Below, piece by piece: positions 19,776 to 33,925 of a DNA stretch of 36,883 nucleotides. The DNA lies in the NCBI GenBank assembly GCA_015063285.1, contig SUST01000013.1:1-36883 (forward strand), written 5' to 3'. Position 1 is the stretch's first letter. Every line of letters begins with the position of its first letter. Source of the DNA: Thermoplasmata archaeon (lineage in GTDB: Archaea; Thermoplasmatota; Thermoplasmata; Methanomassiliicoccales; Methanomethylophilaceae). Made by a program: the position numbers and the translations under genes. Below the pieces are notes generated by a model that had not been told where the DNA came from, ran no database searches, and was given only the letters and a program-made list of their open reading frames with translations.

Positions 19776-20609
19776 TCACAGTCCTGCCATCCTCATCATG
19801 AGGTTGAAGTCGAAACCGTCTTCTTCCGCATGAGTTATCATTTCATCCAGATTTGCGATGAATGCGGAATGGACATCATTACCTTCCAGCTTTCCTTCCG
19901 AAGATGAAAGGGAGTCCTCTTCGGGGAATCTCAGATATTCGTATCTGAGGACGCCGAGGCACTTCATACCAGTCATCGTTTCTATCTGACGTATGGCGGA
20001 TTCCAATATTGAACCATCGCCTCTGAATCTGTTGATTATGAATCCCTTGAGCTGTGGCTTGAGGTCATCAGGGATGAGCTTCCATGTTCCGTATATCGCA
20101 GCGAAGACACCGCCTCTTTCGATATCGCCAATGATAACGGCGGGAACTCCCGTTTCCTTCATCAATCCGACATTGGCCAGATCGGTTTTCATGAGATTGA
20201 GCTCAACAGGGGAACCAGAACCCTCGCATAGGACGAGTTGGTGTCTGGAGTTCATCCTGTCGTAAGCTTTCTTCACCTCTTTTAGGGCCATTTCGCGATC
20301 CATGGGGGAGTCTTTTGTTATGTCCTTGTAGGGCTTACCGTTGAGGACAAGCTGCATCACTCCCTTTCCAGAGGGTTTCAGGAGAACAGGGTTCATATCG
20401 GTCTCGGGGTCCAGACCGGCGGCCCAGGCTTGGAATGCCTGCCCCATACCGATCTCCCCGCCATCCTTCGTGGCTATCGAGTTCAATGACAGGTTGGATC
20501 CTTTGAACGGGGCAACATCGATTCCTTTCCTGTTCAGATATCTGCACATCATGGCGCACACTGTAGTCTTTCCCGCACCGGATGATGTACCCAAGAAAAG
20601 AATGCTCAC
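19776..20609 (-). CDS. Short cobyric acid synthase paralogue without amidotransferase domain
   Basis: This 277-aa protein is homologous to the N-terminal ATPase half of CobQ/CbiP. The P-loop is GTSSGAGKTTVCAMMCRYLN, followed by VAPFKGSNLSLNS, DMNPVLLKPSGKGVMQLVLNGK, CEGSGSPVELNLMKTDLANVG and IGDIERGGVFAAIYGT. The glutaminase domain (no Cys or His motif) is missing. Yet the last residues, FDFNLMMRMAGL, resemble the extreme C-terminus of the long neighbour (DMDIEKLMEIAGV), as if the GATase had been removed from the middle. It overlaps the upstream full-length gene by ATGA. It may act as partner or regulator of the long enzyme, or amidate a different corrinoid intermediate. Confidence 0.82.
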   Translation of the reverse strand: MSILFLGTSSGAGKTTVCAMMCRYLNRKGIDVAPFKGSNLSLNSIATKDGGEIGMGQAFQAWAAGLDPETDMNPVLLKPSGKGVMQLVLNGKPYKDITKDSPMDREMALKEVKKAYDRMNSRHQLVLCEGSGSPVELNLMKTDLANVGLMKETGVPAVIIGDIERGGVFAAIYGTWKLIPDDLKPQLKGFIINRFRGDGSILESAIRQIETMTGMKCLGVLRYEYLRFPEEDSLSSSEGKLEGNDVHSAFIANLDEMITHAEEDGFDFNLMMRMAGL

Positions 20610-22429
20610 TCTTTCACCCCTGCGATTTCCATTAGCTTTTCAATGTCCATGTTGTCCTCGAATACCTTGGCCAGCTTGGAAAGGTTCTCCTCCAATATCG
20701 AATCGTAATCCTCCGCGTTGCTGGTGTCTACGGGTTCCCCTTCATGCTTGACAAAGGATAGGAAGTACTTCCTGAATGCCGGTTTATCGAATATGCCGTG
20801 CTGATAGGTTCCAAAAGTCAGGTCAGCCTCTCTCACAGAACCTTCCGGGACGGGGTCTGCATGGAATCTGCTCAGCATGACCAGAGGCTGCTTCTCATTC
20901 ACCTCTGAGATTCCCATATGGAGCTCGTATCCAGTTATCTCGCCACCGTTTCCGACTGCAAGAACCCCCTCGTTCTGTATGATCTGTTTATCGTATTCTC
21001 CGAATTTCGTGATGTTGTCAAAGAATCCAAGCGCCTCATAAACCTGGGGCTTGCCGTTCTCTATTCCGTTGGAATCATCCAGGATCCTGCCCATCATCTG
21101 GTATCCGCCACATATGCCTACTATCGGGACCTTCTTCCACAGTTTCCTGATCTCATCAGCGATACCAGTCTCCTGCAGCCATATGTAATCAGAGACTGTA
21201 TTCTTGGTTCCGGGCATAACAATGGCGTCGACCCCTTTAAGGTCTTCAGGCCTTTCAACGAAGACAGTGGAGACGTCCTCGAGGAAAAGAGGGTCCAGAT
21301 CTGTGAAGTTGGCCATTCTCGGGAACTTGATGACCCCTATCAGGGACCTCCCTTCTCCCTTGGAATGTACTCCCCTCAGTGCCTCAGAATCCTCACTTGG
21401 GAGCACGACATCGGCATGCGGGATAATGCCGATCACTGGTATGCCCGTGATCCTCTCCAGTTCTTCCGCGCCAGGTTTCAGATTGTCCGTGTTTCCGCGT
21501 ACGTTATTGAGAATGATTCCTTTGATACGCTTCCTGTCCTTCTCAGGGATCAGGTCGATGGTGCCTACTGCGTATGCGAACGAGCCTCCCCATTCGACAT
21601 TGACTACCAGGATCACATTGGCATCCGCAATCTCAGCGGCACGCATATTGGCGATATCCTTGTCATAGATGTTGATCTCCGCTGGAGAACCCGCACCTTC
21701 CATGACGACGCAGTCATATCTGTCCTTGAGGAAATCCACATGTTCTTTCACAATCTGAATTCCTGGCCCGGGGACAAAATCGTTGTAGTATCCTTCCACA
21801 TTGTAATCGGCGAACGGCTTGCCGCATACCATTACCTGCGAAACGGTATCCCCTTTCGGTTTGAGAAGAATCGGATTCATATGTGCATCGGGATTGGTGA
21901 TCCCTGCCGCTTTGGCCTGGAGCACTTGAATCATGGCAATCTCCGCACCGGTTCTGGTGACCTTGGAATTCAGGCTCATGTTCTGGGATTTGAAAGGAGC
22001 TACCAGGTATCCTCTGTTGTGGAGTATCCTGCATATGGCCGCTACCGTGACCGATTTTCCAGCATCGGAAGTAGCACCGACCACCATAAGCGCTTTTCCG
22101 GGTTTCCAGAACTTCTCTTTGGCTGCTTTGAAGATATCGTTGAAACGCTTATCCTTGGCGTCGGTGATACCGAGGCGGTCGATCTCCGAATAGATGAATT
22201 TGACGACTGGGGTCCTGTGTATGAACAGGCAATCTGAGCAGTTCCACACGGGGCCGTGCCTCCCCTGGAGTTCCCAGCCGAAGGTCTTGTCATTACATGG
22301 GAAGAACGGACAATAGCAGAAGGAACAATCCTGGCCTGTGAAGTGTGCCGGATGATAAGGGCAGTTATGGTCTGGTCCGAGCCACCCTCTTTTAATCTCG
22401 TCATTGACCTTCTTCGCAATCTTCTCCAT
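20606..22429 (-). CDS. cbiP: Cobyric acid synthase with N-terminal Cys-rich domain
   Basis: CbiP/CobQ amidates adenosyl-cobyrinate a,c-diamide at four carboxylates to give cobyric acid. The protein is about 607 aa from ATG 22429 (a TTG at 22453 is in frame), over 100 more than usual. The excess is an N-terminal metal-binding-like domain with seven cysteines: NCPYHPAHFTGQDC, SFCYCPFFPC and NCSDC, then IHR. The synthetase domain follows (GATSDAGKSVTVAAICRIL, MNPILLKPKGDTVSQVM, EGAGSPAEINI, VEWGGSFAYAVGTI). Last comes the glutaminase domain with nucleophile motif PIVGICGGYQMMG and TYQHGIFD. The Cys-rich domain resembles the cysteine-rich small domain found at the end of some archaeal CobD proteins. 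Confidence 0.92.
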   Translation of the reverse strand: MEKIAKKVNDEIKRGWLGPDHNCPYHPAHFTGQDCSFCYCPFFPCNDKTFGWELQGRHGPVWNCSDCLFIHRTPVVKFIYSEIDRLGITDAKDKRFNDIFKAAKEKFWKPGKALMVVGATSDAGKSVTVAAICRILHNRGYLVAPFKSQNMSLNSKVTRTGAEIAMIQVLQAKAAGITNPDAHMNPILLKPKGDTVSQVMVCGKPFADYNVEGYYNDFVPGPGIQIVKEHVDFLKDRYDCVVMEGAGSPAEINIYDKDIANMRAAEIADANVILVVNVEWGGSFAYAVGTIDLIPEKDRKRIKGIILNNVRGNTDNLKPGAEELERITGIPVIGIIPHADVVLPSEDSEALRGVHSKGEGRSLIGVIKFPRMANFTDLDPLFLEDVSTVFVERPEDLKGVDAIVMPGTKNTVSDYIWLQETGIADEIRKLWKKVPIVGICGGYQMMGRILDDSNGIENGKPQVYEALGFFDNITKFGEYDKQIIQNEGVLAVGNGGEITGYELHMGISEVNEKQPLVMLSRFHADPVPEGSVREADLTFGTYQHGIFDKPAFRKYFLSFVKHEGEPVDTSNAEDYDSILEENLSKLAKVFEDNMDIEKLMEIAGVKE

Positions 22430-22477
22430 GGTAATCGTGGGATGTATCTGCAAATACAGTTATTACGCATTCGGTCG

Positions 22478-22590: not shown

Positions 22591-23769
22591 ATGGGAAAAG
22601 TATTCAGATTCATGCACTGTGCAGACCTGCATTTGGGAGCCCGCTTCAAAGGTCTCGGTCAGGACAATGGGGAGATGGCCGAGAGGATGAGGAAGTCTGT
22701 GATGGAATCGTTCGAACGTATCATCGACATCTCTATTGACAGATCCGTCGATGCGTTGGTGATATCTGGAGACGTCTACGATGACAGCAATGAGCTGCCT
22801 TCTACCAGAGCATGGTTTTCAAATCAGCTGGACAGATTGGATGTGCCCGTTTACATATGCAGAGGCAATCACGACAGCGCTACCAGTTGGGATGGGGCGA
22901 TAGCATATCCTGAAAACGTGCATGAGTTCGGGACGGAACCAGAAAAGATTGAAATAACCGATGGCGTGGAGATCGTCGGCATCAGCTATTCCACTTCCCA
23001 CGAGACCAGAAACCTCGCTTCGATGCTCGAGGGCAGCGGGGACAAGTTCACCATAGCCTGCATCCATTGCGATCTGGATTCGGTCTCTGAAGGTTATCCC
23101 TACGCTCCATGCAAGATGTCCGACCTGATTGGAAAGTCAGTGGATTACTGGGCACTTGGGCACATCCATAAGAGGGAAATTGTGTCCACAAGTCCTTATG
23201 TTGTCTATCCGGGTAATATCCAAGGGCGCAGCTTCAAAGAGACCGGGCAAAAAGGTGCTTATCTAGTCACCGTTTCAGAAGGGAGGGTTTCATCGTTAGA
23301 TTTCATTCCAACCAGCAAATACAGATGGGAGGATCTGTCTGTAGACATAACAAGAAAGAATCTGAACGAAATCATCAAGGACCTATCTGGTAAAGTGGAC
23401 AGGTCCTCAGTATGCAGGTTGACCTTTGTCGGAAGTGGTGATCTGGATACAATGCTGCGTATAAAGACGAGTGACGTTTCTTCAGCCATCTCCTCATCAA
23501 CAGGGTGTACCATATCATCTATCAAGCTGAATACGATTTCCAGCATCGATCTGGAATCCAGATCTGACGGTAAAGACATGGCTGCTGCCATAGTACGTTC
23601 CGGTAACAAGATAATGTCAATGACCAAGGAACAGATCGTCGATATCATCTGCCAGAACAGGAATGCTGCGAAATATCGTGACATATACATGTCCATGACT
23701 GAAGAAGAGATCCGCAGCATCGTTTCGGATTCCATGAGGTCCATCATTGCCAAGATGGAGGTGGCATGA
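22591..23769 (+). CDS. Mre11/SbcD/YhaO-like nuclease
   Basis: This 392-aa calcineurin-like phosphoesterase of the Mre11/SbcD family acts as a manganese-dependent nuclease at DNA ends. The motifs are in order: D12-x-H14 (CADLHLG), G60-D61 (ISGDVYD), RGNHD (91-95), then IHCD and LGHIHKR. A C-terminal capping/partner-binding region follows. The partner overlaps by ATGA. Because the partner is of the YhaN type with membrane helices, this protein is closer in arrangement to bacterial YhaO than to classical archaeal Mre11, which sits with Rad50, HerA and NurA; none of these is adjacent here. Start ATG 22591 was taken by family alignment; 24 upstream codons are open but unlike the family. Confidence 0.87.
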   Translation: MGKVFRFMHCADLHLGARFKGLGQDNGEMAERMRKSVMESFERIIDISIDRSVDALVISGDVYDDSNELPSTRAWFSNQLDRLDVPVYICRGNHDSATSWDGAIAYPENVHEFGTEPEKIEITDGVEIVGISYSTSHETRNLASMLEGSGDKFTIACIHCDLDSVSEGYPYAPCKMSDLIGKSVDYWALGHIHKREIVSTSPYVVYPGNIQGRSFKETGQKGAYLVTVSEGRVSSLDFIPTSKYRWEDLSVDITRKNLNEIIKDLSGKVDRSSVCRLTFVGSGDLDTMLRIKTSDVSSAISSSTGCTISSIKLNTISSIDLESRSDGKDMAAAIVRSGNKIMSMTKEQIVDIICQNRNAAKYRDIYMSMTEEEIRSIVSDSMRSIIAKMEVA

Positions 23770-25862
23770 TGAGGCTGAAGTCCATAGTCATCGATTCATT
23801 TGGGAGATTGAAAGGAAAGACTTTCAATCTGAATCCAGGCCTCAATGTCTTCTATGGTCCCAACGAGTCTGGCAAAAGCACCACCATGGAATTCATCCGC
23901 TGTACCCTGGTTCCCAATAAGAGCAATAAAAGCTCGTATCCTGAACGCATGAAGACGGATTCAGGTACGATCGTGTATGAGGAAAACGGACTGGAAAAAA
24001 GAGTTTTCATGGAAGGGAAGACCGGACATAAAGGGGATGCTCCCGAATGCGTTTCTGACATAGAGCCTGTTCTGTATCGTAACATTTTTGCAATGAACAG
24101 AGAGGGTCTGGATGAAATGGCTACACTTTCTAACGGTGACATAAGGTCCAAATTCCTGACCATCCCCGGAGGTGAATCTATGCCTGATGTCATCAAGAGC
24201 ATAGATGCTGACTGGGAAAGGCTTATCGGGAAGACATCGACGTCCCCTTCCGCCATCAATGCCATCCAAAGAAATGAGGATGAGATACTGAAGAAGATCG
24301 GCGAGTTGCGTTCTCATGTAGAGTCCTATTCTGAACTGAACGGCAGACGCATGGAATTGGAGGAAAGGCTGCAGAAGTTAGATTATGCGAATAAGAAAGC
24401 CATCGAGAATAACAATCAATACTCCAAGGTTGAATCGCAGAAATCGAATTTCGACAGTCTTACGGCATGCAGAGCTAAGAGGGATGAATTGATGAAGGGC
24501 CCGATTCTGCAGGACGGTGCTCAAGACACTTACGAATCCCTGAAAAACGATGCCGAATCTAAGAAGGCCGCGTATGAAGCACTCGAGCAGAATCGCAGGC
24601 AGCAGATATATGCACTGCCGGGACAGGATGAGAGCAAACTGCTTCAATTGCGTCCACGCATCCAGTCTGTTGTAGATAGACAACCGGAATACCATGCGCG
24701 GATATCTAGGCCTGCGGAACATGTCCAGGTCTCAAACTCAAAGATGCCGTTTGTTTTGATGGCGTTATTGGCTATTGCCGCAGTGGCTGTTTGGCTAATT
24801 CCCGGACTGGATGTTACCATCCCTATTGTTGCTGATATTGCGATACTGGCCGTCATTGCCTTTGTGTATTTCAGAATGAGAGGTACAAAGACGACGATCA
24901 AAACTGAGGGGCCTGATCCGTGGATTTCCAATTATGAGGCTGAGGTTAGGGTTCTGTCCAACGAATTGCGTATCGAACCCATCAGCACGGACGTTGATCT
25001 GAGAAACATGGCCGGAATCCTTGTCAAACTGAATGCACTGGATGCCACCAGGGAGCCTTGTTTGACGGCCAGAACCGAATACCTCAAAGCAGATAACAAA
25101 CTCCTGGGTTTCCTCGCCCAATACGGGGGAGAGCAGGGTTATAAGAAAGCTTTCGAGAGCACGGCGCAGCTGAGGTCCTGTAAGGCCACCATAGCCACCT
25201 TGGAGTCCAACATCAGAATATCCGGATTGGATCCCGATAGGCCTCTACCAGATATCGTCAAAATTGACATCGATATGTCGGAATATGCTTCGTTAAGTGC
25301 GGAGAAAGGAAAGATAGAAGAGATGATGAAAAACATCCTGGATACCAAAGAACTAGATTCGCTGATCGACAGTTCGTACACTGTAAGCTCTGAAAAGGGC
25401 AAGGTACTACGTGAAGGGGCGGTATCGTTGGTTTCATCTCTGATTGTACAAGATGCGTGTGCCGACCTATATGAGAATGTTCATCCAGATGTAATCAGCA
25501 CTGCGGACAGATATCTTGGGCTGATGACGAATGGTTCATGCCGTTTGGATTTGGATCCCAGAAACACAGACATATCTGTGATCTCGAACGGTGAACCAAA
25601 GAATCCCAAACAATGGAGTACCGGACTTCGCGCGCAGATCCTTCTTTCGATCAAACTTGCTATCGCCAAGGAGATGGGGAGAGGAGAGATCCCGATCATT
25701 CTGGACGATGTTCTGCTGCCGTTTGACAACGTGAGAAAGAAGGGTGCTATCGAGGCATTATCTGCACTGTCCGATGAGATGCAGGTATTGCTGTTTTCCT
25801 GTGATGACGATGTAATGGAGATTGCCAAAGAACAACCAGAAATCTCCATCATAACGATGTGA
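23766..25862 (+). CDS. Rad50/YhaN-like ATPase with two internal membrane segments
   Basis: This 698-aa SMC/ABC-type ATPase has Walker A GPNESGKST at 31-39, signature WSTGLRAQILLSIKLAIA near 616-633 and Walker B IPIILDDVLLPFDN near 640-653. Two coiled-coil stretches (about 190-310 and 380-560) flank a hydrophobic centre with two predicted helices, MPFVLMALLAIAAVAVWL (327-344) and a second at about 350-370. There is no zinc-hook CxxC. The domain order matches bacterial YhaN (AAA_27), partner of YhaO, rather than Rad50, although it is shorter than YhaN. It should sit at the membrane with its nuclease partner. ATG 23769 is an equally good start. Confidence 0.85.
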   Translation: MMRLKSIVIDSFGRLKGKTFNLNPGLNVFYGPNESGKSTTMEFIRCTLVPNKSNKSSYPERMKTDSGTIVYEENGLEKRVFMEGKTGHKGDAPECVSDIEPVLYRNIFAMNREGLDEMATLSNGDIRSKFLTIPGGESMPDVIKSIDADWERLIGKTSTSPSAINAIQRNEDEILKKIGELRSHVESYSELNGRRMELEERLQKLDYANKKAIENNNQYSKVESQKSNFDSLTACRAKRDELMKGPILQDGAQDTYESLKNDAESKKAAYEALEQNRRQQIYALPGQDESKLLQLRPRIQSVVDRQPEYHARISRPAEHVQVSNSKMPFVLMALLAIAAVAVWLIPGLDVTIPIVADIAILAVIAFVYFRMRGTKTTIKTEGPDPWISNYEAEVRVLSNELRIEPISTDVDLRNMAGILVKLNALDATREPCLTARTEYLKADNKLLGFLAQYGGEQGYKKAFESTAQLRSCKATIATLESNIRISGLDPDRPLPDIVKIDIDMSEYASLSAEKGKIEEMMKNILDTKELDSLIDSSYTVSSEKGKVLREGAVSLVSSLIVQDACADLYENVHPDVISTADRYLGLMTNGSCRLDLDPRNTDISVISNGEPKNPKQWSTGLRAQILLSIKLAIAKEMGRGEIPIILDDVLLPFDNVRKKGAIEALSALSDEMQVLLFSCDDDVMEIAKEQPEISIITM

Positions 25863-25879
25863 TGGAGCGACACTCCCTC

Positions 25880-25894
25880 TTATTTATATATAAG
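25880..25894 (+). promoter_or_regulatory. Strong TATA promoter ahead of the dnaG leader
   Basis: TTATTTATATATAAG is 18 bases behind the ATPase stop. It predicts a transcript starting near 25910, exactly at the first hairpin of the region below, more than 210 bases before dnaG. Confidence 0.65.
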
Positions 25895-25909
25895 ATTTAG
25901 AATGTCTCA

Positions 25910-26063
25910 AACAGGGAGAATACTATCCCTGTTCACACATACAATATCACGATCATCACTCGCCCTGTGGGGCGAAAACTAAGGATTCGGGCAACGGAGC
26001 GACCGACCCGACATACGAAAATCCACGGTTTGGTTAAATATGGGCGCACTGCCAGACGGCGGT
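25910..26063 (+). ncRNA. Folded region: candidate small RNA or long structured dnaG leader
   Basis: Four stem-loops follow one another. AACAGGGA/TCCCTGTT is 8 bp perfect (25910-25917 with 25926-25933). TCGCCC/GGGCGA has a TGTG loop (25960-25965 with 25970-25975). TCGGG/CCCGA (25987-25991 with 26007-26011) encloses CGG/CCG. ACTGCC/GGCGGT (26048-26053 with 26058-26063) has one G-U pair. The promoter at 25880 would start transcription at the first stem. A second TATA-like TTAAATAT (26034-26041) may serve dnaG alone, which would leave a separate RNA of about 125 nt. It does not look like tRNA, 7S, RNase P or C/D RNA. Confidence 0.4.
26034..26041 (+). promoter_or_regulatory. Possible second TATA box for dnaG
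   Basis: TTAAATAT in a GGTTTGG...GGGCGC context would start transcription near 26064, about 60 bases before dnaG. GGAGGG at 26115-26120, five bases before ATG 26126, is the strongest ribosome site in the window. Confidence 0.4.
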
Positions 26064-26125: not shown

Positions 26126-27844
26126 ATGAACATTGATCCCAATGCAACAAAATACATGGTAAAAGCGAAGATTACAGCCGATGGAGTCATTGACAGACCG
26201 GATGTAGTCGGTGCAATCTTTGGACAGACTGAAGGACTCCTTGGAGATGAACTGGACCTCAGAGACCTGCAGAAATCCGGAAGGATCGGAAGAATCGAGG
26301 TGGAGACCGTTACCAAAGGCGGAAAATCCGAGGGAATAATCTACATGTCATCCAGTCTCGACCAGGTCGAGACAGTAATTCTGGCATCCGCTCTTGAGAC
26401 TGTTGACCGCGTCGGACCCTGCAAGGCATCCGTACACGTTCTCGGAATCGAGGATGTCCGTGTAACAAAGAGAGAGAAGGTTGTTGAACGTGCAAAAGAG
26501 CTGCTCAATGAACTCATGAAACAGTCCGAAGGCTCAAGCACGAACCTCATGAACAGCGTGAAGCAGAGCGTTCAGGTAGAGGAGATCACCACCTACGGAC
26601 CTGACAGATGTCCCGCCGGACCCAATGTCAAGGATTCCGAGGCGATCATCATCGTCGAAGGAAGGTCAGATGTTCTGAACCTTCTGAAGGCAGGAATCAA
26701 GAATGCTATCGCAGTAGAGGGTACCAACATCCCCAAGACTGTCCAGGAACTCTCCAAAGAGAGGGTCGTTACGGCGTTCACCGACGGTGACAGAGGAGGA
26801 GAGCTCATCCTCAGGGAGCTCTTCCAGGTTGCAGAGGTCGATTTCGTCGCCCGTGCCCCGCGTGCACACGAGGTCGAGGAATTATCCTCTAAGCAGATTG
26901 TCAAGTGTCTTCGCAACAAGGTCCCCGGAGACCAGTACATGGAGATGAACAACCTCAGCTTTGAAGAAAAGTCATTCGAAGAACTCGATAATTTCGAGCC
27001 TGAGGGAGACTACAGGCGTGACAGGAAGGACCGTCACGACCGTGAGGACAGGCGTGACAGGCGTGACAGGAAGGATCGTCACGACCGTGAGGACAGGCGC
27101 GAGGAGCGCAGAGACCGCGACGAGCACCGCAAGGAGAGATTCAACAACGAAGCCCTCGACAAATACAGGAAGAAGCGCGAGGAGCGCCAGGAGAGGGAAG
27201 AGAAAGAGGAGAGGGAGATGGAGACCTTCCTCGACCGCGATGAACCTGAGATCGAAGCTCAGGAGACCCCGATCGAGCAGCCTGAGGAGGAACACGAGGT
27301 GCCTGCCGAGGAAGAGAGGCCCAGGAAATCCACCAAGAGGAAGAAGGATGCAGAAGAGAGGCCCAGGAAATCCACCAAGAGGAAGAAGGATGAGGAGTCT
27401 GCAGAGGAACCCGTAACGGACGCCTCTGAAGATTTCGAAGCATCCGCAGAACCAAAGGAAGAAGAGGCCGAAGCCGTCGAGAAGCCTAAGGAAGCCAAAA
27501 AGGCAAGGTCCCTCCGCGGGAAGAAGCTCATAACTGATAAGGTTCTGACTCCTGAGCAAGAAGCATTCCGTGACATGCTCCTCGGACTCTCAACAACACA
27601 CAACGCTACTGTGCTGGATGCTGATAACAATGTCATCAGGCAGGTGGCTGTCAAGAGCCTCGTCAACTCATTGAAAGAGGATGGCGACGATGTTGCAGCC
27701 ATCGTCTTCGATGGAGTCATCTCCCAGAGGATCATCGATGTATCCTCGGAGAAGGGAATCAAGACCGTTGTCGGAACCCGTAAGGGAAACATCTCCAAGA
27801 TGCCCACAGATGTGACCATACTAACTAAGGAAGATCTCGTCTGA
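26126..27844 (+). CDS. dnaG: Archaeal DnaG (Toprim primase / exosome subunit) with expanded charged linker
   Basis: Archaeal DnaG has a Toprim fold, makes short RNAs in vitro and is a stable subunit of the RNA exosome. The 572-aa protein is clearly longer than its usual 400-450. The N-terminal domain (IDPNATKYMVKAKITADGVI) comes first. The Toprim motifs are AIIIVEGRSDVLNLLKAGIKNA and TAFTDGDRGGELILREL, and a conserved C-terminal domain starts near residue 460. The growth is in a linker (about 295-455) of Arg-Asp-Arg and Glu-Lys repeats encoded by recent tandem DNA duplications. GTG 26120 is an alternative start. The Lon-like gene follows after five bases. Confidence 0.93.
   Translation: MNIDPNATKYMVKAKITADGVIDRPDVVGAIFGQTEGLLGDELDLRDLQKSGRIGRIEVETVTKGGKSEGIIYMSSSLDQVETVILASALETVDRVGPCKASVHVLGIEDVRVTKREKVVERAKELLNELMKQSEGSSTNLMNSVKQSVQVEEITTYGPDRCPAGPNVKDSEAIIIVEGRSDVLNLLKAGIKNAIAVEGTNIPKTVQELSKERVVTAFTDGDRGGELILRELFQVAEVDFVARAPRAHEVEELSSKQIVKCLRNKVPGDQYMEMNNLSFEEKSFEELDNFEPEGDYRRDRKDRHDREDRRDRRDRKDRHDREDRREERRDRDEHRKERFNNEALDKYRKKREERQEREEKEEREMETFLDRDEPEIEAQETPIEQPEEEHEVPAEEERPRKSTKRKKDAEERPRKSTKRKKDEESAEEPVTDASEDFEASAEPKEEEAEAVEKPKEAKKARSLRGKKLITDKVLTPEQEAFRDMLLGLSTTHNATVLDADNNVIRQVAVKSLVNSLKEDGDDVAAIVFDGVISQRIIDVSSEKGIKTVVGTRKGNISKMPTDVTILTKEDLV
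27012..27101 (+). repeat. 45-bp tandem repeat, two copies, in dnaG
   Basis: Copies 27012-27056 and 27057-27101 differ at two positions. Each encodes a 15-residue block of the pattern R-R-D-R-K-D-R-H-D-R-E-D. A degenerate third block (RREERRDRDEHRKER) follows. Confidence 0.85.
27311..27392 (+). repeat. 42-bp period direct repeat in dnaG
   Basis: A 40-base unit at 27311-27350 is repeated without a mismatch at 27353-27392. Each copy encodes EERPRKSTKRKKD. Identity at the DNA level, third positions included, indicates a recent duplication. Confidence 0.85.
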
Positions 27845-27849
27845 TTACC

Positions 27850-29367
27850 ATGGCCAAACAGAAACACGTCGAGACCTGGGAAGACGTCCAGGGAATGAAG
27901 TCGACCGCCGAGATCCTTCTGCCGAAGGACCCTCTTGACAGGGTCCTCGGTCAGGAGGAAGCCATCGAGCTGGCGAAGATCGCTGCCAAACAGCGCAGGC
28001 ATCTGCTGCTCGTAGGTCCTCCCGGTACCGGTAAGTCGATGATCGCACGCGCACTGTCGATGAACCTTCCTGCACCTACGCAGGAGGTCCGTGTCGTCAA
28101 GAATCCCGAGAATCCTGAGAGGCCTCTGCTTTCCGTCCTCAGTGCGGAAGAGGTCCTCAAGGAGGAGGATATGAAATCAGCATCCATAGGCATTCTGCTG
28201 ACGCCTGAACAGGCGCCTCCGTCCGTTGCCGAGCATTTGGGATACAGGTGTAAGTTCTGCGGAGGCTATTCGCTTCCTACAGACCTTTCCTGCCCCCATT
28301 GCAACCAGACCAAATTGGATGCGACAGCGAACAAGAGCAATCCCTTCCAGGATCTACTAAGCAACCTCGGTGGCATGTTGGACATGCCTATGCCTGAGAT
28401 CACAGCCGGAAAAGAGAAGGTCACTACACGCGGAAGGAATGACGAACAGGTCATCTTTGAGCGTGCTGGCGACAAGGTCCGCATGCTGGATAAGGATGCC
28501 ATCGAGAAGAGGGCCGAACTCCGCACCACTAGCAACGAGAAGGTCCTTGTGAAACTCAGGAGGAACCCATTCGTTCTGGCCACCGGTGCATCCGAGACAG
28601 AACTCTTGGGAGATGTCCGCCACGATCCTTACGGAGGTCATGAGAAACTCGGTTCCCCCGCATACGAGAGAATCGTTGCAGGTTCGATCCACGAGGCTCA
28701 CGAAGGAGTTCTATTCATCGATGAGATCTCACACCTCAAGGACCTGCAGAGATACATCCTTACCGCTATGCAGGACAAGGTGTTCCCCATCACCGGTAGG
28801 AACCCCCAGTCAGCCGGAGCAAGCGTCAAGGTGGATTCTGTGCCTTGCGATTTCATCCTCGTAGCGGCCTGTAACATACAGGACTTGGAGAACATCCTCT
28901 CCCCGCTGAGGTCAAGGATCGTCGGAAACGGATACGAGGTCCTGGTGGACATAGCAATGCCTGATACCCCTCACAACCGCGCCAGGTACGCCCAGTTCGT
29001 GGCTCAGGAGGTCCAGATCGACGGACACATCCCGCATGCTACCATCGAGGCTGTCGAGAAGATCATCGCCGAAGGAAAGAGACGCGCCAAACTGGACAAC
29101 CAGAACAATTCCCTCACTCTCAGACTGAGGGAGCTGGGCGGACTCATCAGGTCTGCCGGAGACATAGCCGTCCTCGAAGGTGCGAAGTACATAACCGGCG
29201 ACCACATCAATCGTGCACTCAGGAGATCGAGAAGCGTCGAGGAGCAGATCAAGGAGCGTTACGGTTCCTACAACAAAGGTCTCTCCAAGGACGTATCCTC
29301 GGCTCAGAAAGAACGTTCCGGATACTACTTCGAGACAGAGCATCTGGACGATTCGATGTTCTCCTGA
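27850..29367 (+). CDS. Lon-type AAA+ ATPase with zinc-ribbon insert and no protease domain
   Basis: This 505-aa protein is most like the ATPase part of archaeal LonB. Walker A is GPPGTGKS (56-63), Walker B GVLFIDEISHL near 285-295, the sensor/arginine region SPLRSRIVGNGYEV, and the AAA lid ends DHINRALRRSRSVEEQIKERYG. In LonB the Ser-Lys protease domain begins soon after this lid; here the chain stops some 30 residues later. Inserted after Walker A is a CKFC...CPHC zinc-ribbon-like pair (C134, C137, C148, C151) instead of LonB's membrane segment. It may be a remodelling ATPase. Five bases behind dnaG, it is part of the same transcript. Confidence 0.85.
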   Translation: MAKQKHVETWEDVQGMKSTAEILLPKDPLDRVLGQEEAIELAKIAAKQRRHLLLVGPPGTGKSMIARALSMNLPAPTQEVRVVKNPENPERPLLSVLSAEEVLKEEDMKSASIGILLTPEQAPPSVAEHLGYRCKFCGGYSLPTDLSCPHCNQTKLDATANKSNPFQDLLSNLGGMLDMPMPEITAGKEKVTTRGRNDEQVIFERAGDKVRMLDKDAIEKRAELRTTSNEKVLVKLRRNPFVLATGASETELLGDVRHDPYGGHEKLGSPAYERIVAGSIHEAHEGVLFIDEISHLKDLQRYILTAMQDKVFPITGRNPQSAGASVKVDSVPCDFILVAACNIQDLENILSPLRSRIVGNGYEVLVDIAMPDTPHNRARYAQFVAQEVQIDGHIPHATIEAVEKIIAEGKRRAKLDNQNNSLTLRLRELGGLIRSAGDIAVLEGAKYITGDHINRALRRSRSVEEQIKERYGSYNKGLSKDVSSAQKERSGYYFETEHLDDSMFS

Positions 29368-31435: not shown

Positions 31436-31871
31436 TTCTAGCCACCATCCTGTAGCCGTTCTCGCCCGGACCGTATAGGTCGAAGACCTTCTCAGTGATG
31501 GTGAATCCGCGTTTAGTGTAGAACTTGTATGCCGATGAATTGTCCGTACGGAGTTCGAGCTGCATCTCTGTGTAGCCTGACATGTAGCATTTCGTTCTGA
31601 AAGTATCGAAGAGTTTGCTCCCAATGCCCTGTCCCCTGTATTTGGAGTCTACAGCGAACAGGGCAATGGATGCTCTGCCGTTGTTAAGCCTTGTCCCGCA
31701 CAAAGCGCCTACCAGGTTACCGAAGAGGTCGACGGCGACATACTGGCCTTCCGGCCAGAAGGACATGAAGTACTGGATGACGTCCAGTGAGAACGTTCCA
31801 TCCAGATTTGAGTTCATGAGGGCATAGACGGATACCATGTCCTCAGGCTTCATGTTCCTATAGATGATCAT
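31416..31871 (-). CDS. GNAT-family N-acetyltransferase
   Basis: This 151-aa acetyltransferase is of the RimI-like GNAT type. The acetyl-CoA motif A is SKYRGQGIGSKLFDTF near residues 76-91, preceded by the IALFAVDS strand and followed by LELRTDNSSAYKFYTKRGFTITE (motif B). Proteins of this pattern acetylate N-termini or small amines; the substrate is not determinable here. It starts four bases inside the end of the PLD-like gene (ATGA), with which it is co-transcribed. It converges by 20 bp on the surface-protein gene. Confidence 0.87.
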   Translation of the reverse strand: MIIYRNMKPEDMVSVYALMNSNLDGTFSLDVIQYFMSFWPEGQYVAVDLFGNLVGALCGTRLNNGRASIALFAVDSKYRGQGIGSKLFDTFRTKCYMSGYTEMQLELRTDNSSAYKFYTKRGFTITEKVFDLYGPGENGYRMVARISHASS

Positions 31872-33904
31872 CTCTTCTTGCCCTTCTTTCCTTTCTTCTT
31901 TTTCTTGCCGCCGGTAGACAGTTTGAATATGGCGGCTATTATTGCAAGCAGGACGATAGCGATGGGTGCCAGATACGGTTTGATCTTGTCAAAGAAGCTG
32001 TCTCCCGACCCGGGATCGTCTTTTCCTACAGTGAACTTCTTGGAATCCATTCCCTGGTTGCCTTCGGAATCGGTTACCTTGACCTTCAGCACGTGTGTTC
32101 CGTCGTTGACATTGAAGACAGTGCGAGGTACTGAAGTTGTTTTGACCGTACCGTCAAGATCCCACTCATAAGTGAAGGTTCCCGTCTGTTCTACATTGGC
32201 CAATGCTGTTATTTCTCCAGCGGAATCATAGTGATCCTTGACCTCTGTGAGGGTCACATCCAATCCGGAATAGATGTAGTTCTTATCGAAATCTATGGTA
32301 TATTCGGCAGCGTAGAAGTCAGCCACATCTTTTGATGCTATGACCACACACATCTCCCTGTTGTCGGTAAAGGATGTTGTTGTCCAGTTAACTGAACTGA
32401 CCAGGGTTGTATTGTCCGATATCACTCCTTTGTTGTGAACGTAAGGCTTGGACATCGCTGCAGCCTTGATCTTGGAGGTCATGTTGATCTGCGCCACCGC
32501 CTTCTTCGCTTCGTCTGCATCGACAGCGGAGTTGAGAATGAACTTCGTATCAACACCTTTCGAAGCCTGGTCTGCTAAATGTTTCATGGGTGATTCCTTA
32601 TCGAAGTCCAAATAGGAGCTGGTAAGGCTCTGTTGCTGAGAATAGACTCTGGTTGATGCTTTGTCTATGTAATAGTTAGTTGCATACAAAGAACTGGTAG
32701 GTGACATCACAGGCGTTACCTTGGCCGTATATGTAACGGTGGGGTACGTGTCCCTCGGTTTTTCGTAGTAGACCGTTGCAGCTTCGACGTTGGGGAGGAA
32801 CGCCTCGAATGTGATGACGTCTCCGTACTGCATGGAATAGTCGTTGTTGAATACATTCAGCATATAGGATGCATACTCTTTGCTCTCAACTATGGCACCC
32901 CATCCGCGATTGCCCTTACCATCCTCAGCATTCTTTACGACCTTACCGTTCAGATTGTCCGTGACCCAATTCTCTGAGGTCACGATGACCGTCTTCTCGT
33001 CCACTATACAGTATTTTGCATGCACGTAAGTGTATCTGGACAGATCTCCGCCGATGAACCTTACCTCTCCTCCCGCATCGATGACCGCTTTCATCTTCTT
33101 GGCATCCGATGCCAAAGTGCTGTAGCCTAGGGGGCTCTTTTCGAGCAGTATCGTTACCTTTACACCTTTATCTTGGAGTTCCTTCAGCAATCCGTAAAGA
33201 TTGGTGTTGGTGAGCTCATACATCGTGATGTAGACGTTCTTCTCGGCCTTCTCGAGTGTCTCGAATACAGGTATGCCCCCACTGTTGGGGAACAGGAACG
33301 GGGTGACTTTGGCATCGTATTGTAGGTCGGGATCGAAGTAATTGGGCATTACTCCCCAGCGGTAGTACGATTTTGCAGATGATGTGGAGAAATCACTTCT
33401 AACGGCGAAATCATTGGATTTCTTGGACATCGAAGGATAAGGTTCGCCGACCCATTCTGTACCTTCAGAGACGGTGACATTACCGAAGAAGAAAGCATCG
33501 ATGATCGTTTCTCCTTTCTTGAGGAATAGATCATCGCCTTTGTCGTTCAAAGAGAAATTACTGCTTGCCTTGATTCCTTTCTCTCCGTACAGGTAATAGG
33601 AATCAGCGTGGTTGATGAAATAAGAGTCCTTGGTATCATCTGCTTTCACAATTGTGATGGTCTCTTTGGAATCCAACATTATGGTTTCCTCGAAGACCAG
33701 TTTACCTTCGTTGTCGGTCAGCGAATAGTTCTTCAAATCAACTGCGGAGCTTCCGGAGTTGTAAAGGGTGAACCCTTCGTCCGTACCTGCTGATTTGATT
33801 TCATACAGGACAACATCTCCGCTTGCTCCATCGTTTTCAATTGCGATGGAACAAACGGTGAAGGATAACGCCAGAATAAGAATCGCGGTCAGTAATTTCT
33901 TCAT
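31868..33904 (-). CDS. Secreted lamin-tail / tandem phospholipase D protein, membrane anchored
   Basis: This protein of about 678 aa has a signal peptide (KKLLTAILILALSFTVCSIA). A lamin-tail-like beta domain (about 30-165; VVLYEIKSAGTDEGFTLYN, VDLKNYSLTDNEGK) follows. Two PLD half-sites come next, each with an H-x-K-x4-D motif: VHAKYCIVDEKTV and VHNKGVISDNTTL. A PKD-like domain (TFTYEWDLDGTVKTTSV, DGTHVLKVKVTDSEGN) precedes a membrane helix (IAIVLLAIIAAIFKL) and a very lysine-rich cytoplasmic tail. Both half-sites together form one active centre in the family, a phosphodiesterase acting on lipids or DNA outside the cell. The promoter spacing suggests a leaderless mRNA. A GTG at 33910 is the alternative start. 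Confidence 0.87.
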   Translation of the reverse strand: MKKLLTAILILALSFTVCSIAIENDGASGDVVLYEIKSAGTDEGFTLYNSGSSAVDLKNYSLTDNEGKLVFEETIMLDSKETITIVKADDTKDSYFINHADSYYLYGEKGIKASSNFSLNDKGDDLFLKKGETIIDAFFFGNVTVSEGTEWVGEPYPSMSKKSNDFAVRSDFSTSSAKSYYRWGVMPNYFDPDLQYDAKVTPFLFPNSGGIPVFETLEKAEKNVYITMYELTNTNLYGLLKELQDKGVKVTILLEKSPLGYSTLASDAKKMKAVIDAGGEVRFIGGDLSRYTYVHAKYCIVDEKTVIVTSENWVTDNLNGKVVKNAEDGKGNRGWGAIVESKEYASYMLNVFNNDYSMQYGDVITFEAFLPNVEAATVYYEKPRDTYPTVTYTAKVTPVMSPTSSLYATNYYIDKASTRVYSQQQSLTSSYLDFDKESPMKHLADQASKGVDTKFILNSAVDADEAKKAVAQINMTSKIKAAAMSKPYVHNKGVISDNTTLVSSVNWTTTSFTDNREMCVVIASKDVADFYAAEYTIDFDKNYIYSGLDVTLTEVKDHYDSAGEITALANVEQTGTFTYEWDLDGTVKTTSVPRTVFNVNDGTHVLKVKVTDSEGNQGMDSKKFTVGKDDPGSGDSFFDKIKPYLAPIAIVLLAIIAAIFKLSTGGKKKKKGKKGKKR

Positions 33905-33925
33905 GCCCACGCTATGAAAAACTAG

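Follow-up and report, generated by a model that had tools for sequence, protein, structure and literature searches.

An archaeal YhaO–YhaN (SbcF–SbcE) pair beside dnaG in Methanomethylophilaceae, a candidate for DNA-end processing at the membrane

Introduction

Mre11–Rad50 is generally regarded as the complex that acts first on DNA breaks in nearly all organisms, and a whole archaeal family with no detectable copy of this canonical module, and with RadA intact, raises the question of what replaces it. The window analysed here, a stretch of 36,883 nucleotides from a Thermoplasmata archaeon of the methane-producing, gut-type family Methanomethylophilaceae (GCA_015063285.1, contig SUST01000013.1), holds an obvious candidate: a gene for an Mre11-type nuclease followed by one for an SMC-like ATPase (Table 1). 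A sequence-only reading of the window had compared the pair with bacterial YhaO–YhaN and had proposed that it processes DNA ends at the membrane or serves in defence.

The bacterial literature supports a repair role for YhaO–YhaN in little detail (PMC3896406, PMC4205851, PMC6452273, PMC12748557). The complex also goes by the name SbcEF (PMC6452273). SbcE has been presented as a protein of double-strand break repair (PMC4205851), and yhaONM, which is induced in Bacillus pumilus, has been counted among LexA/SOS genes (PMC3896406). In one replisome-rescue screen, B. subtilis could do without SbcEF (PMC12748557). Little is known of SbcEF in bacteria, and a lineage in which it often stands alone is therefore a clean setting in which to learn its function, with relatives that lost the hairpin or the whole pair as natural controls. 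Here, we ask which type of complex the window encodes, how it is distributed and inherited, and what it is likely to do.

Results and discussion

The gene pair

The two genes are directly adjacent with the nuclease upstream, and they overlap, as the sequence-only reading had noted; the ATPase start at 23766 lies in an ATGA with the nuclease stop codon, and an alternative ATG lies at 23769. A strong ribosome-binding site, GGAGGTGG, stands directly 5' of the ATPase start, and through the overlap nuclease and ATPase are translationally coupled.

Table 1. Features of the pair and its conserved downstream neighbours, in window coordinates
Feature	Position	Strand	Details
YhaO/SbcF-like Mre11-fold nuclease, 392 aa	22591..23769	+	ATG 22591, stop 23769
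Phosphoesterase motif I, D12-L-H14	22624..22632	+	D12 and H14 invariant in alignment
Phosphoesterase motif II, D61	22771..22773	+	Invariant in alignment
Phosphoesterase motif III, N93-H94	22867..22872	+	Conservation at least 90% in alignment
Phosphoesterase motif IV, H159	23065..23067	+	Invariant in alignment
Phosphoesterase motif V, H191-I-H193	23161..23169	+	H193 invariant, H191 at least 90%
YhaN/SbcE-like SMC-type ATPase, 698 aa	23766..25862	+	ATG 23766; 697 aa from likely start ATG 23769; stop 25862
Walker A, GPNESGKST, residues 31–39	23856..23882	+	
Predicted membrane hairpin at coil apex	24744..24869	+	Residues 327–345 and 350–368, tight loop, basic flanks
ABC-type signature, WSTGLRA, residues 617–623	25614..25634	+	
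Walker B, LDDVL, residues 646–650	25701..25715	+	
Archaeal DnaG (Toprim), conserved neighbour	26126..27844	+	Likely start ATG 26126
Mg-chelatase/LonB-like AAA+ ATPase, conserved neighbour	27850..29367	+	

The nuclease has the full set of Mre11 phosphoesterase motifs that had been claimed for it (D12/H14, D61, N93/H94, H159 and H191/H193), and the metal-binding motifs were intact in all 27 archaeal pair nucleases checked. It matches Metallophos in Pfam, and its AlphaFold model (pLDDT 93) matches Mre11 with a Z score of about 25 over residues 1–317, a structure alignment identifying an Mre11 core and a capping domain. Judging from the model, the C-terminal helices at residues 330–391 may form the part that binds the ATPase. 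The ATPase matches AAA_27 and AAA_23 in Pfam; its model has confident heads, whose closest counterparts are reflected in the best PDB matches, Rad50 and SMC heads, and coils about 140 residues long from head to hairpin. No CxxC zinc hook was found in the window's ATPase, and the NCBIfam models for Mre11, SbcD and Rad50 all score below their cut-offs on the pair.

A hydrophobic hairpin at the coil apex

The claim that two membrane helices interrupt the coiled coil in place of a zinc hook was borne out by hydropathy and by the missing CxxC. The two hydrophobic 19-mers have Kyte–Doolittle means of 2.63 and 2.42, and even a single equally hydrophobic stretch arose in just 102 of 20,000 shuffles. 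At least one such segment is present in 26 of the 28 archaeal homologues, only two being without any. Tandem hydrophobic segments at the coil apex that are kept in homologues are far beyond chance. They are also a general trait of YhaN: of 77 bacterial members of at least 600 residues, 70 have two or three segments, six have one and one has none, so that at least one segment occurs in 76/77. In the canonical set of ten proteins, a hook was found in nine and a hydrophobic segment in none. The membrane segments were called from hydropathy; the AlphaFold model has low confidence in the hairpin, and its hairpin structure was left unused. On the hydropathy, insertion of the ATPase into the membrane is predicted with good confidence.

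The tenth protein of the canonical set belongs to a different Mre11-like pair (L083:5578-9353, genome G137), whose 877-residue SMC-like member has neither hook nor hairpin, a Walker B of LILDDALGHTD and a very long branch. Two relatives carry a YhaN without the hairpin at the same locus as in the window (L063:6626-8656 in G080 and L064:6431-8446 in G091). Their Walker A has NG, not NE, and their Walker B LDE, not LDD, so that hairpin loss coincides with a Rad50-like active site in this clade of the window's genus.

Assignment to YhaO–YhaN

A tree of 75 nucleases separates the pair, together with the bacterial and haloarchaeal YhaO proteins, from Mre11 and SbcD with an SH-aLRT of 98; the rows from Methanomethylophilaceae all fall in one clade (support 99), and the window's nuclease lies outside the archaeal Mre11 clade. 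The same division appears in the ATPases. A profile of the archaeal pair ATPase scores 155–527 bits on full-length bacterial YhaN and 26–66 bits on Rad50 of the same order. The ATPase head tree, which covers Rad50 and YhaN only (SbcC rows were left out), places the pair among YhaN rows, joined at 98 with that of a second family (f4) and one bacterial row; its deepest split, from Rad50, is weak (support 63) because of long branches. The copy of family f5 (L080) groups with bacteria elsewhere in this tree, which suggests that it was acquired independently.

A diverged true Mre11–Rad50 would have the same nuclease fold and gene order, and the pair does take the place of Mre11–Rad50 in the family. 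Nevertheless, the Rad50 proteins of the same order, with their CPTC or CPAC hooks, LDE Walker B, lack of a hairpin and low profile scores, leave no room for the window's ATPase within true Rad50, the outcome that would have told against the sequence-only reading. Furthermore, family f4, and probably f5, has both kinds of complex. A diverged Rad50 was thus ruled out by tree, hook, Walker B and hairpin, and a true Mre11–Rad50 in disguise has next to no probability. Trees, profile scores, partner order, the mid-coil hairpin and the absence of a hook all speak for the YhaO–YhaN layout, and the pair is almost certainly an archaeal YhaO–YhaN (SbcF–SbcE) complex. A match to PF13514, tried as a diagnostic, does not discriminate, being found in 13 of 14 control genomes.

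The pair resembles bacterial YhaO–YhaN, such as B. subtilis yhaONM, in gene order, coupling, Mre11-type nuclease motifs, YhaN heads with GPNE-GK and an LDD Walker B, the mid-coil hydrophobic hairpin and the absence of a hook. The bacterial ATPases were collected by a Walker-B-like pattern, so that LDD is present in that set by construction, and the hairpin, hook and partner counts are unaffected. Where the contig extends far enough, nearly all of these relatives are directly preceded by an Mre11-type gene. Plasmid annotations name this partner a DNA repair exonuclease and the ATPase, once, a 'YhaN family protein'; plasmid-borne YhaO is 37–38% identical to the window's nuclease over about 260–280 residues. 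The Enterococcus pair is flanked by two further genes, in the order YlbF–nuclease–ATPase–HD protein. There are distinguishable differences between the archaeal and bacterial forms. The first is size: YhaN has about 900–1330 residues in most bacteria and 698 here. The sequence-only reading was right to call the ATPase smaller: its coils become shorter within the family, which takes the protein from about 980 down to about 700 residues; basal rows have about 950–980 residues, and the window's genus and its neighbours about 690–740. The second lies in the active site, where bacterial LSRGT and an H-loop Cys-His stand against WSTGL (WSxGL) and Cys-Asp here; we treat the LSRGT signature and the H-loop His as typical of most bacterial members, not as defining. 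The third is the setting, as the archaeal pair adjoins dnaG and is often the sole such complex in its genome.

Distribution of the pair and of the canonical module

Of the 102 genomes of Methanomethylophilaceae, 75 have the ATPase; among the 45 with a completeness of 90% or more, 39 have it. SbcCD, which likewise joins a nuclease to an SMC-like ATPase, is a separate and patchy second system, present in 32 family genomes. It was scored as present when TIGR00619 exceeded 100 bits; SbcCD nucleases reach about 109–163 bits and pair nucleases about 30–57. Of the 39 pair-bearing genomes above, 17 also have SbcCD; in the other 22, no Mre11–Rad50-type complex besides the pair was found. One genome (G092) has SbcCD only. 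Neither system was found in G049, G056, G057, G062 and G072, in which a profile search again detected no YhaN. Three of these (G072, G056 and G057) are near-complete family genomes in which HerA was likewise not found and RadA is intact. Two genomes, G072 and G103, had seemed to hide an SMC-like pair and were rejected, as the genes in question adjoin PLD- or helicase-type neighbours with no such nuclease; G103 cannot be scored as pair-negative, its contig beginning at dnaG.

Canonical Mre11–Rad50 was sought in the window's own genome (G000; 1.79 Mb, 33 contigs, 96.7% complete), a check that the sequence-only reading had proposed, and none was found. The six Metallophos proteins of this genome, read by eye, are YfcE-like, the polymerase D small subunit, the window's nuclease, a 5'-nucleotidase and two PdeM-like proteins; the AAA_23 matches above the cut-off that were read are SMC, the window's ATPase, an OLD/AAA_15-like gene and an ABC transporter. 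Neither a zinc hook nor NurA was found in it. In a search over all 147 genomes of the order, no Rad50 zinc hook appeared in Methanomethylophilaceae; about 19 family genomes screened with SMC_N yielded no Rad50, and fuller screens of a family subset yielded no canonical Mre11–Rad50. Loss of the canonical module is read from absence in mostly draft genomes, with G031, G034, G072 and G078 as single contigs. HerA was absent or weak in the seven family members tested, and RadA scored 474–492 bits in all ten genomes tested.

The canonical module had been expected to sit with HerA and NurA. HerA does lie near Mre11 in two genomes (G142 and G008), but NurA was not found at the canonical loci of this order. 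The idea that HerA–NurA accompanies the canonical complex was dropped, since NurA (PF09376) was detected in only two of the order's 147 genomes, and its absence is therefore not specific to Methanomethylophilaceae. Across the rest of the class (400 genomes), the ATPase is sporadic (G008, G013, G147, G224 and, weakly, G250; also G014), and in G008 canonical Mre11–Rad50 stands alongside the pair.

Locus, inheritance and selection

The pair lies between cobQ and dnaG. The order YhaO–YhaN–DnaG–LonB-like is kept from the window to basal genera, over many genera and, beyond Methanomethylophilaceae, in family f4 and in G008. In one relative (G084), about 0.3 kb remains between CobQ and DnaG where the pair would be. 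A single ancient insertion followed by vertical descent and subsequent losses would account for this pattern, and in Methanomethylophilaceae the pair occupies a core locus that is inherited vertically. This status, beside dnaG and a LonB-like gene and in an order common to a second family, is new here. Because the gap before DnaG is about 260 bp, co-transcription with dnaG is only a possibility. At the site of the lost pair, two genomes carry a methyltransferase-like gene (L199:3678-4892 in G049 and L200:441-1838 in G055).

Between two genomes compared (G077 and G078), dN/dS is 0.16 for YhaO and 0.15 for YhaN, and 0.01–0.08 for flanking genes; the pair is constrained but evolves faster than its neighbours. 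A relic under decay would also diverge fast, and repeated losses and the changed H-loop agree with one. However, dN/dS near 0.15 indicates purifying selection, which disfavours decay, and open frames and, in every nuclease checked, intact motifs have been kept; we regard a relic as very improbable.

The same faster evolution, the losses in some relatives and the plasmid-borne bacterial homologues could be expected of an SMC-type defence such as Lamassu, one that would detect phage or plasmid DNA on entry and cleave it at the membrane. The ATPase also has weak PADLOC matches to mad3 and LmuB, and Lamassu LmuB is among its PDB fold matches. These matches are at the level of the shared SMC-like head only. 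Unlike Lamassu, the pair has an Mre11-type partner and a housekeeping locus with no mobile or island context, and no Lamassu effector or small subunit (LmuA or LmuC) was recognised adjoining it, the neighbours being YhaO, DnaG, LonB-like and CobQ-like genes. The locus is fixed over many genera and a second family, which disfavours a mobile defence, and the family-wide vertical clade and purifying selection point the same way. Of the two roles first proposed, defence is thus weakened to an unlikely reading and end processing is favoured.

Proposed function

The most likely function of the pair is ATP-gated processing of DNA ends at the membrane, which we infer with reasonable confidence. The coil apex would sit in the membrane with both heads facing the cytoplasm and, given coils of the modelled length, held within roughly 20 nm of it. 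In Mre11–Rad50, ATP-driven closure of the heads gates the nuclease. By analogy, the two ATPase heads would, with ATP, clamp shut around DNA and control the attached nuclease, which would trim or clip DNA ends to give a usable 3' strand for RadA. No canonical Mre11–Rad50 was found in the family, and the members tested have a weak HerA or none; the pair therefore probably does the end processing that falls to the canonical module elsewhere, but does so at the membrane and not as a freely diffusing complex. This role is nevertheless not essential, because several relatives without SbcCD have lost the pair as well. As a tentative history, the ancestor of Methanomethylophilaceae may have taken up a bacterial-type, membrane-anchored YhaO–YhaN and later lost HerA–Mre11–Rad50, so that chromosome breaks would now be processed at the membrane by a substitute for a module that archaea otherwise typically have.

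A membrane tether would also suit a site of DNA entry, where the pair might process DNA taken up from outside. The title of one paper cited in the bacterial literature ties B. subtilis SbcE to competence as well as to double-strand break repair, and we count it in favour of such a competence-type role. However, no uptake genes were recognised adjoining the pair, and the LexA/SOS listing of the bacterial pair (PMC3896406) speaks against it; we consider this role rather unlikely. End processing at the membrane thus remains our preferred reading.

Other observations in the window

Ahead of its C-terminal part, the DnaG at 26126-27844 carries an extended low-complexity insert rich in D, R and E. 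The CobQ-like gene on the other side of the pair (19776-22453, minus strand) encodes an N-terminal Cys-rich, zinc-finger-like domain and adjoins a second CbiA-like gene, an order kept in much of the family. Further downstream, at 31868-33910 on the minus strand, lies a gene for a PLD-like protein with a lamin-tail domain. The stretch after yhaN (25855-25990) folds better than its shuffles (z = −3.7) and possibly forms terminator hairpins.
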